Shown here in pieces: positions 19,890-62,478 of a stretch of 64,000 bases of DNA. Both the position numbers and the translations under genes were made by a program. Every line of letters starts with the position of its first letter. Position 1 is the first letter of the stretch. The stretch is from positions 1 through 64,000 of the forward strand of contig JAJZTH010000009.1 of the NCBI GenBank assembly GCA_021849075.1. The letters are read 5' to 3'. The notes below the pieces were generated by a model that saw nothing but the letters and a program-made list of their open reading frames with translations, ran no database searches and had not been told where the DNA came from. This DNA is from Pseudomonadota bacterium (GTDB lineage Bacteria; Pseudomonadota; Alphaproteobacteria; Sphingomonadales; Sphingomonadaceae).

Positions 19890-21621
<1,732 letters not shown>

Positions 21622-21662
21622 TCCAGCCTCCCCTTCCCTGATACGGGAGGGGGACAGGACAG

Positions 21663-51081: not shown

Positions 51082-51534
51082 ATGATTCGCGAGCAGGTTA
51101 AGAGCGCCCAGATCGAGTCGATGAAGGCCGGCGACAAGGAAAGGCTGGCCGCCGTGCGCCTGATCCTGGCGAAGCTGAAGGACCGCGACATCGAACTGCG
51201 CACCGCCGCCACCGTGCCGGACGATGACGCCGTGGTCGTGGAAGTGCTCCAGAAGATGGTGAAGCAGCGCCGCGAATCGATCGACATGTTCAAAAATGGC
51301 GGCCGCGACGAACTGGCGGCCAAGGAACAGGCCGAACTGGACGTCATCGAAAGCTTCCTGCCCCAGCAACTGACCGAGGACGAAACGAAGGCCGCGATCG
51401 AAGGCATCAAGGCCGAAGTCGGCGCGTCCAGCGTGAAGGACATGGGCAAGGTGATGGCCGTGCTGAAGGAACGCCACGGTTCCGTCATCGACATGAGCAA
51501 GGCAAGCGGGCTGGTAAAGGCGGCTTTGGGCTGA
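51082..51534 (+). CDS. GatB/YqeY domain-containing protein
   Basis: MIREQVKSAQIESMKAGDKERLAAVRLILAKLKDRDIELRT. Confidence 0.93.
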   Translation: MIREQVKSAQIESMKAGDKERLAAVRLILAKLKDRDIELRTAATVPDDDAVVVEVLQKMVKQRRESIDMFKNGGRDELAAKEQAELDVIESFLPQQLTEDETKAAIEGIKAEVGASSVKDMGKVMAVLKERHGSVIDMSKASGLVKAALG

Positions 51535-51550
51535 CCTTTCGCTCATAATT

Positions 51551-51590
51551 CCCCTCCCGCTTGCGGGAGGGGTCAGGGGAGGGCATGTTC
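51551..51590. repeat. Left inverted repeat of the DUF559 element
   Basis: CCCCTCCCGCTTGCGGGAGGGGTCAGGGGAGGGCATGTTC; 37/40 identical to the reverse complement of 51933-51972. Confidence 0.92.
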
Positions 51591-51597
51591 AACCCTG

Positions 51598-51981
51598 ATG
51601 GACAAAGGCTACGCCCGCCCCACTGCAAAAGCCCGCGCACTGCGCAACAATGCCACGGAAGCCGAACGCGCTCTGTGGCACGCCATCAGCGCCCGTAAAG
51701 TTTCCAACCTCCGCTTCAACCGTCAGGTGCCGATCGGCCCTTTCATTTGCGATTTCGTGGCCCGCTCCATCAGTCTGGTGATCGAAGTTGACGGCGGACA
51801 GCATAATGACGCGGTCGATGCGGAACGGACGCGCTATATTGAAGCACAGGGCTTTCGTGTGATCCGCTTTTGGAACAATGATGTTCTGGGCAACATCGAG
51901 GGCGTGATTGAGGAAATCGAACGGGTGATTGCGAACATGCCCTCCCCCACCCCCTCCCGCAAGCGGGAGGGGAGTCTTTGA
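51598..51981 (+). CDS. DUF559 endonuclease-domain protein (PD-(D/E)XK/Vsr-like)
   Basis: LRFNRQVPIGPFICDFVARSISLVIEVDGGQHNDAVDAERTRYIEAQGFRVIRFWNNDVLGNIEGV. Confidence 0.92.
   Translation: MDKGYARPTAKARALRNNATEAERALWHAISARKVSNLRFNRQVPIGPFICDFVARSISLVIEVDGGQHNDAVDAERTRYIEAQGFRVIRFWNNDVLGNIEGVIEEIERVIANMPSPTPSRKREGSL
51933..51972. repeat. Right inverted repeat of the DUF559 element
   Basis: GAACATGCCCTCCCCCACCCCCTCCCGCAAGCGGGAGGGG; lies inside the 3' end of the DUF559 ORF and carries the dnaG SD. Confidence 0.92.
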
Positions 51982-53858
51982 CCCTCACACCCCAATGGCT
52001 GGACGAACTGCGCGCCCGCACGTCGCTGTCGACCCTCATCGGCAAGAGCGTGAAGGTCACAAAGGCCGGCCGCGAATATAAAGCCTGCTGCCCTTTCCAT
52101 AATGAGAAGACGCCCAGCTTCACGATCAACGATGAAAAGGGATTCTACCATTGCTTCGGCTGCGGCGCGCATGGCGATGCGATCCGCTGGATGACCGATC
52201 AGCGCGGCCTGCCCTTCATGGAAGCGGTGAAGGAACTGGCCGCCACCGCCGGCATGGACGCTCCCGCCGCCGACCCCCGCGCCGCCAAACGCGCCGAAGC
52301 GGCCAAGGGCCTGCACGACGCCATGGGCGCGGCGCAGAGCTTTTTTGAGGAACAACTGGGCGGCATCGATGGCGGAGATGCCCGCGCTTATATGCAAAAG
52401 CGCGGCATCACCGACGCCACCCGCCGCGCCTTCGGCTTTGGCTATTCGCCGGATTCGCGCGGTAAGCTGAAAACGGCCCTGCGCGATTTCGGCGATCCCA
52501 TGCTGGTAGAGGCCGGCCTGCTGATCAAACCCGACGGGGAACGCGACACCTATGATCGCTTCCGCGGCCGCCTCATGCTGCCGATCCGCGATATTCGCGG
52601 CCGGGTGATCGCGTTCGGCGGCCGCATCATCGGCGCTGGCGAACCCAAATATCTGAACTCGCCCGACACGCCGCTCTTCGACAAGGGCCGCACCCTCTAC
52701 AATATCGACAAGGCGTCCCCCGCCAGCCGGGCGACCGGCCGCGTCATCGTGGTCGAAGGCTATATGGACGTCATCGCGCTGGCGCAGGCGGGCTTTGGCG
52801 AAGCCGTCGCCCCGCTCGGCACGGCGCTGACCGAACATCAGATCGAGCGCCTCTGGAAAATGGTGGAGGTGCCCCTTCTCTGCTTCGATGGCGATTCGGC
52901 CGGGCAGAAGGCGGCGATCCGCGCTGCCACCCGCGCCCTCCCCCTGCTGCGCCCCGGCCACAGCCTCGCCTTCGCAACGCTCCCCAGCGGCCAGGACCCC
53001 GACGACCTGATCCGCGCCAGCGGCCGGCAGGCGATGGAAGCCGTACTGACCGATGCCGAACCGCTGATCGAGCGCCTCTGGAAACACGAAGTCTCGTCCG
53101 CACCCCTCGCCACGCCGGAGGAGAAGGCCGCGCTCAAGCAGCGGCTGCGCGCTATTTCGGACGCAATCGCCCACCCGGATGTGCGCGCCCATTACGCCCA
53201 TGAATTTCGCGAACGCTATGACGCGCTCTTCTTCGCCCGGCGCGAATCCGCGCCCGCCCAGCGACGCTTTGCCGGCGGCGGCAACGCAGGCGGCCGCTGG
53301 CAACGCGACAAACGCGGCAACTGGAAGCCGCCCATCGCCCCTGCCGGCGCGGAAGTGCGCGCGATCGGCGCCAGTGGCATGGAGCAGCGCCTGCTCCGCG
53401 CGATCCTCGCCGCGCTGCTGCGCCATCCCGACCAGATCGCCCCCCATCGCGAGATGCTGTCGGCCCTGCAAATCGGCGATCCCCTGCTCGCCCAACTGCT
53501 TGCCGCGATGATCTCTTTGTCCTTCCGAAAAGAAACAGTTGAAACACAGGCCCTCCTTACCATATTGGGGCAAGGTGAGTTGTATAATATGGCCAAGGGG
53601 ATGCTCCGGGCCGATGCGTTCACACTCACTTCCGACAGGATGAGCACCGATCCTGATCGCCTTTCGCGCGATCTGGAGGAGGCCGTTCGGGTGATGGCGC
53701 AGGGACCGGAGCTGGAAACGGCATTGGTGGAAGCCACAAGACGGTTCGAGAGCGACTTCAGCGAGGAAAATTTCGCTGAGCAGCAGCGCGTTCGCGCTCT
53801 GAAAGCCGATCATGATCGTCGACTGGCGGAACTGGCGCAGTCCGAAGACATTGTTTGA
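51978..53858 (+). CDS. dnaG: DNA primase
   Basis: LDELRARTSLSTLIGKSVKVTKAGREYKACCPFHNEKTPSFTIN zinc-finger domain; VVEGYMDVIALAQAGF TOPRIM; TTG start. Confidence 0.97.
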   Translation: MTLTPQWLDELRARTSLSTLIGKSVKVTKAGREYKACCPFHNEKTPSFTINDEKGFYHCFGCGAHGDAIRWMTDQRGLPFMEAVKELAATAGMDAPAADPRAAKRAEAAKGLHDAMGAAQSFFEEQLGGIDGGDARAYMQKRGITDATRRAFGFGYSPDSRGKLKTALRDFGDPMLVEAGLLIKPDGERDTYDRFRGRLMLPIRDIRGRVIAFGGRIIGAGEPKYLNSPDTPLFDKGRTLYNIDKASPASRATGRVIVVEGYMDVIALAQAGFGEAVAPLGTALTEHQIERLWKMVEVPLLCFDGDSAGQKAAIRAATRALPLLRPGHSLAFATLPSGQDPDDLIRASGRQAMEAVLTDAEPLIERLWKHEVSSAPLATPEEKAALKQRLRAISDAIAHPDVRAHYAHEFRERYDALFFARRESAPAQRRFAGGGNAGGRWQRDKRGNWKPPIAPAGAEVRAIGASGMEQRLLRAILAALLRHPDQIAPHREMLSALQIGDPLLAQLLAAMISLSFRKETVETQALLTILGQGELYNMAKGMLRADAFTLTSDRMSTDPDRLSRDLEEAVRVMAQGPELETALVEATRRFESDFSEENFAEQQRVRALKADHDRRLAELAQSEDIV

Positions 53859-62275: not shown

Positions 62276-62299
62276 CCCCTCCCGTCTACGGAAGGGTCA
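62276..62299. repeat. Diverged solo CCCCTCCCG...CGG(G)AGGG palindrome related to the DUF559-element repeats
   Basis: CCCCTCCCGTCTACGGAAGGGTCA versus CCCCTCCCGCTTGCGGGAGGGGTCA in the left inverted repeat. Confidence 0.5.
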
Positions 62300-62478
62300 T
62301 GAAGCTTACGTGCGCAGCGCGTCAGTCGAAGGGGGGTGGGCCATTGCGACGTCCAGCCCCCGCCAGACAATCCATCCCCCTTACATCTTGCGACAAAATC
62401 GACCCGGCTCTGGCACAATCCTGCGACAGGCGACTTCTACTCCTTGGTCCATCGAAAGAGGAAGAAGGAGAAGTCGCC

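Follow-up and report, generated by a model that had tools for sequence, protein, structure and literature searches.

The described systems closest to the locus reported here are the RAYT transposases with their REP, BIME and REPIN palindromes. In both, a single small gene for DNA processing stands between inverted palindromes, solitary palindromes and inverted doublets without a gene are dispersed through the genome, target-site duplications are absent, and the gene is inherited mostly vertically. RAYTs move rarely and descend mostly by vertical inheritance. The two systems differ in their enzymes and in their palindromes: DUF559, the domain studied here, has a Vsr-like PD-(D/E)XK fold with no Y1/HUH motif and no match to PF01797, and its palindrome lacks a GTAG head and bears a third, inward G-rich strand. 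Since the defining Y1 enzyme is absent, the DUF559 system would work like RAYT/REPIN but is no RAYT.

The DUF559 protein shares its fold with the Vsr endonuclease, which serves the host in very-short-patch repair, nicks T:G mismatches and goes together with a cytosine methyltransferase; the DUF559 cassette has inverted arms and no methyltransferase gene next to it. Vsr-like catalytic folds in selfish genes have a precedent in the homing endonuclease I-Bth0305I, which resides in phage recA genes, has no palindromic arms and uses a separate DNA-binding region. The only studied relative, Caulobacter VsrA (CCNA_02930), also carries a DUF559 domain; it has a proposed role in mismatch repair and, in the absence of a methyltransferase, causes DNA damage signalling (PMC12907096), suggesting that DUF559-type proteins cut DNA in vivo.

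Box C, also named PIT element or intrastrand triplex motif (TM), has the consensus CCCTCNCCCN3-6GGGNGAGGGN3GGGNGAGGG (PMC4666352). Holder et al. (2015) reported it in >260 genomes and never found mobility functions around it; they demonstrated its triplex folding in vitro and connected it with genome instability (PMC4666352). It has been published as an intergenic orphan repeat, whereas here we find it as the terminal repeat of DUF559 cassettes.

The cassette between yqeY and dnaG

The window, i.e. the whole stretch of 64,000 nucleotides analysed, belongs to a genome of 3.67 Mb whose named matches in the same genus are Sphingobium species. Two 41-nt inverted repeats, 93% complementary and 342 nt apart, bracket a single gene in it. 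The left arm (51550-51590, forward strand) starts with the hairpin CCCCTCCCGCTTGCGGGAGGGG (51551-51572), followed by the inward G-rich third box TCAGGGGAGGGCATGTTC; as a single strand it is predicted to fold into a hairpin at -11.3 kcal/mol (z -2.66). The right arm (51933-51973, reverse strand) is its reverse complement, with the hairpin at 51951-51972. Both 22-bp palindromes are exact and stand at the start of their arms; for the palindrome core, the window gives 3 matches where 0.13 are expected. Inward of the hairpin, both arms bear the extra G-rich box GGGGAGGG, so that the single strand reads C-rich, G-rich, G-rich.

The enclosed ORF (51598-51981, forward strand) encodes a 127-aa Vsr/PD-(D/E)XK-like nuclease of the DUF559 family (PF04480, E 5.7e-36; 123.2 bits vs a gathering score of 20.6). 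It is the sole gene between the arms, with no DDE, HUH, serine or tyrosine recombinase inside. Its last 14 aa, the tail PSPTPSRKREGSL, are encoded by the right arm, which falls within the 3' end of this ORF. On the left stands yqeY, an ORF with a GatB/YqeY domain (51082-51534, forward strand), and on the right the dnaG primase ORF (51978-53858, forward strand; homologues in 60 genomes), the start of which, at 51978, overlaps the stop of the DUF559 ORF. With these two neighbours, no methyltransferase gene is adjacent, and PADLOC gives no anti-phage defence match for the window DUF559 system.

Three relatives of the palindrome stand alone in the window, all on the forward strand. The first, at 20410-20480, consists by sequence of a hairpin CCCTCTCCC..GGGAGAGGG, a second mini-hairpin and an inward G box, its palindrome (20410-20432) reading CCCTCTCCCTTCGGGGGAGAGGG. 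The second is a decayed hairpin with 1 mismatch (21631-21652), just upstream of an ordinary terminator-like hairpin, and the third, partly decayed (62276-62341), has a hairpin with 2 mismatches (62276-62297) followed by an insert and a GGGGGGTGGG box. The first-pass annotation had already described the inverted repeats, their palindromes, the DUF559 assignment and these solo copies, and all of this held up. The third box was new to our analysis, and so was the identity of the repeat. Going by its sequence, the arm is the repeat published as Box C, PIT element or intrastrand triplex motif: its hairpin precedes a third G-rich strand that could pair with the purine strand, and the DUF559 arms share with that motif the CCCTCnCCC-n-GGGnGAGGG-n3-GGGnGAGGG architecture and the occurrence in inverted pairs. 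The arms in the window represent the variant CCCCTCCC.

The AlphaFold2 model of the protein (mean pLDDT 86.9) is predicted to have a Vsr-like fold with a conserved acidic/His active site (D52, E63, D65, H69); these four residues and G66 are invariant in the DUF559 family alignment. The closest solved structure in a Foldseek search was 3HRL (E 1e-6, 36% identity), the putative endonuclease NGO0050 of Neisseria gonorrhoeae, followed by the catalytic domain of I-Bth0305I (3r3p, E 1.3e-4); Vsr itself (1vsr/1cw0) was returned with probability 1.0 but an E value of only ~0.02. A gonococcal locus homologous to NGO0050 (L290) is also flanked by triplex-motif copies, which are there direct, not inverted, and have a common outer sequence.

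Bracketing across phyla and the unity of gene and arms

Bracketing was scored as the best local alignment between the left flank of a gene and the reverse complement of its right flank, with shifted windows as controls. In this genome, each of the four DUF559 genes is bracketed, the three beyond the window's own being absent from the first-pass annotation. Every one has a different arm variant (CCCCTCCCGC.., CCCCTCCCCTTCAGGGG.., CCCCTCCCTGAAAGGG..), and all arms bear an inward GGGGGTGGG-type box. Within the genus, 32/33 DUF559 loci score 34-83 vs 13-25 in shifted windows, and in a larger locus set 59/60 distinct elements are bracketed. We then considered a wide sample of 80 loci from GTDB genomes, chosen by protein motif and not by their flanks, in which 62-63 of the 76-77 evaluable loci are bracketed vs 2/292 control windows. 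They come from alpha-, beta-, gamma- and deltaproteobacteria, Omnitrophota, Binatia, Rokubacteria, Marinimicrobia and Dehalococcoidia, to which a bracketed gene from Deinococcus was added later. An exhaustive sample, taking all near-full-length DUF559 matches with retrievable flanks in 120 Pseudomonadota genomes, gave 37/51 bracketed loci vs 1/102 controls, in 19/22 genomes (Fisher p 1e-22, only indicative because loci of the same genome are not fully independent). About one quarter of DUF559 genes have no arms, for instance in Legionella, Serratia and Rhizobium metallidurans. Among 242 arms, the G-rich box is found only inside the hairpin in 183 and only outside in 11. The location of DUF559 genes between inverted copies of one G/C-rich hairpin repeat is hence real and general, and extends over many phyla.

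At five loci, several sets of hairpins, nested or in tandem, surround a single DUF559 gene.

In genomes with several copies, we compared each left arm with its own right arm and with the right arms of the other DUF559 elements of the same genome. The own right arm was the best match in 29/31 cases (mean score 70 vs 37 for the others). Arm similarity in the genus rises with protein identity, from 0.33 (<55%) to 0.61 (55-70%) and 0.86 (>70%), and the correlation between arms and proteins (Mantel rho 0.27) was reached in 0/1000 permutations; it is weak across phyla (rho 0.10, 31/1000 permutations). Arm type tracks protein clade in the genus, and the arms and the DUF559 gene form one unit.

Gain, loss and gene-less copies

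The first-pass annotation had read the locus as a candidate selfish or REP-associated nuclease element, and had named two observations that would speak against it: DUF559 genes mostly lacking such repeats, and a gene fixed between yqeY and dnaG throughout the clade. Both were looked for. Most DUF559 genes are bracketed, as described above, and fixation is contradicted by the junction itself: among 60 species, at least nine show a hairpin-free spacer of 11-86 bp there, and in roughly half DUF559 is present together with its arms, over about 426-513 bp. The proposal is therefore supported. One species (L075, genome G055) has an internally deleted cassette of 164 bp, made of an arm, the start of the gene and an arm, showing how gene-less doublets can arise. 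In other species the junction holds a GIY-YIG cassette, several times beside or between the same hairpins. The DUF559 proteins found at this site belong to at least three separate clades, with different arm types (CCCCCTCCCGCCTGCGGGAGGGGGCCGGGGGGTGGGC; CCCCTCCCGCTTGCGGGAGGGGTCAGGGGAGGGCATGTTC; AAGCCCCTCCCTTCCAAGGGAGGGGTTGGGGTGGGTGAT); starred branches of their tree force four label changes, and a single origin is present in no bootstrap tree. Separate clades with different arms at one site indicate that whole cassettes arrived or were exchanged there more than once, while the conserved position within each clade suggests that movement is rare and inheritance mostly vertical. Near-identical DUF559 paralogues within one genome were not found in the genus. 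Empty sites showed no clean joints to filled sites, and no target-site duplication that would prove insertion. Such duplications had been reported absent from the window, and among 102 elements we found none beyond chance (mean best direct repeat 2.66 vs 2.54 ± 0.16 in shuffled sequences), i.e. the duplication of classical IS and MITE elements is lacking.

Hairpins of this kind are frequent. Pattern searches, which went beyond the first-pass annotation, returned 88 CCCCTCCCn2-8GGGAGGGG hairpins in this genome vs 0 for the reversed control pattern. Most of those listed form pairs ~95-143 bp long, with the third box pointing inward on either side and without an intervening gene, a pattern like that of REPINs, which are inverted gene-less doublets. 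Hairpin number is linked to DUF559. In counts covering two hairpin patterns over 61 genus genomes, the five genomes without DUF559 hold 0, 6, 6, 6 and 12 hairpins vs a median of 30 in the others (p 5.5e-4, without phylogenetic correction), and hairpin number correlates with DUF559 copy number (Spearman 0.64; 0.55 without zeros; again with no phylogenetic correction).

About half of the 22 distinct doublet copies that we read have common outer flanks, GGTTTCCTGCCAT on one side and GGACAT on the other; in nine doublets with differing core types these flanks (GGTTTCCTGCCAT and GGACAT/ATGTCC) extend over ~15-20 bp. They may mark a favoured target sequence, or else the boundary of some larger unit. 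The pattern of an empty target, GGTTTCCTGCCAT | ATGTCCGC, was not found in the 61 genomes, which leaves the flanks as part of the unit, or as a target whose intact form was missed.

Escherichia coli K-12 has 23 Box C copies. Copy no. 9 (TM9) adjoins ycjD, an annotated DUF559 gene (167 bits with PF04480) whose stop codon is overlapped by another hairpin of Box C type. All these copies are on the 3' side, and without a 5' arm ycjD in K-12 is a one-sided relic at best. Strains lacking ycjD have the eefRABCD operon between fabI and sapF (PMC12817139), so that this is not a simple empty site, and we discarded ycjD as an insertion polymorphism. The tested Box C doublets are polymorphic among 5,426 E. 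coli genomes, with full, single-hairpin or missing alleles; at hrpB-mrcB, fepB-entC and alx-sstT we found alleles without the doublet or with a single hairpin. Clean insertion joints at these three sites were rejected, as further differences accompany the joints. Box C also seemed to occur twice on plasmids, but both copies proved to lie in chromosomal segments borne by those plasmids. In the hrpB-mrcB (three loci) and alx-sstT (two loci) spacers, some strains have a doublet and others a single composite hairpin, as if two inverted hairpins collapsed to one.

The small GIY-YIG genes of the genus (PF01541) constitute a second nuclease fold with the architecture of the DUF559 cassette. In this set, 27/29 loci are bracketed by inverted palindromes vs 2/116 controls. 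Their palindromes belong to two families different from the DUF559 repeat: CCGTTCGCCCTGAGCGAAGTCGAAGGGC, with the variant CCGTTCGTTTCGAGCGAAGTCGAGAAACG, and CGTCATTCCCGCGAAGGCGGGAATCCA, which is similar to the neisserial dRS3. In one genome (G035), copies of the GIY-YIG cassette on four contigs share an identical 438-bp stretch, GCGGCCATTCC...ATCCGCCA, and lie beside different sequence near contig ends, which is evidence of recent multiplication of the cassette in G035. The flanks of these copies are alike, as if a preferred target existed.

A probable mobile cassette and the competing explanations

We consider that the window probably holds an autonomous palindrome-nuclease cassette, following a RAYT/REPIN-like logic with an unrelated Vsr-fold nuclease. 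Our data establish the architecture, its presence in many phyla, the unity of gene and arms, the link of hairpin number to DUF559, the repeated occupation of one site and the modelled fold; that DUF559 recognises, cleaves and mobilises its arms is what we infer. The deleted cassette L075, the inward G boxes of the doublets, a fold near those of a homing endonuclease and Vsr, copy TM9 beside ycjD and the polymorphic E. coli doublets likewise favour this reading. Against it speak the mostly vertical inheritance, the lack of near-identical paralogues, clean joints and target-site duplications, the one-sided ycjD, the direct gonococcal repeats, the genes without arms, the weak trend across phyla and the mismatch-repair role proposed for VsrA. 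Most likely, the nuclease would recognise the folded arm, or the arm junction, once it becomes single-stranded, and would nick or cut it; host repair or replication would then copy the arm-bounded unit to another intergenic site without target-site duplication. The cassette would move rarely and otherwise be inherited vertically, and gene-less doublets and single hairpins would be its abundant non-autonomous products. For the enzyme behind the spread or maintenance of Box C repeats, the DUF559 nuclease is the best candidate, given its bracketing by this repeat.

It is unlikely that the arms are instead the terminal repeats of an element moved by some other enzyme, with DUF559 hitchhiking. The absence of any other gene between the arms argues against this, as does the recurrence across phyla of a lone DUF559 gene with the same arm architecture, even if DUF559 alone is no known transposase and many MITE-like elements carry passengers. 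The candidate mover, moreover, is missing: the Y1/RAYT family (PF01797) has no member in this genome and is lacking in 44/61 genus genomes, and its presence has no effect on hairpin number (median 30 vs 21, p 0.43, without phylogenetic correction), which rules out a RAYT as mover in this genome.

It is about as unlikely that DUF559 is a Vsr-like repair or guardian nuclease acting on mismatches or on hairpin/triplex obstacles, with palindromes serving as autoregulatory or terminator sites and not as ends of a mobile unit. The Vsr fold, the biology of Caulobacter VsrA (PMC12907096) and the mostly vertical inheritance in the genus all speak for such a role. A repair gene would yet be hard to reconcile with an arm pair that is inverted, present on both sides of the gene and specific to each element, with whole cassettes that come and go at one site, and with gene-less doublets dispersed through the genome. 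Finally, that small orphan genes land in or between pre-existing intergenic palindromes, a reading favoured by how common hairpins are in these genomes and by the bracketing of GIY-YIG genes too, is very improbable given that only 1-2% of shifted control windows are bracketed, that an element's own arms match far better than those of other elements, and that DUF559 and GIY-YIG genes use different palindrome families.

The reading as an autonomous cassette can be extended, and here the chances seem to us about even: DUF559 proteins, as PD-(D/E)XK nucleases of Vsr fold, may serve an unrecognised class of mobile palindrome systems, reading a hairpin/triplex structure as terminal repeat, and may have created the Box C / PIT / triplex motifs, a parallel GIY-YIG class doing likewise for the CCGTTCG...CGAA and ATTCCC...GGGAAT palindromes. 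The open-access literature, i.e. outside subscription journals and preprints, contained no paper linking DUF559 or GIY-YIG genes with flanking palindromes. Our results suggest that REP-like palindromes are not exclusive to RAYTs, and that at least two further nuclease folds may run such systems. The idea is directly testable in E. coli K-12, with ycjD and the Box C copies, and in sphingomonads.
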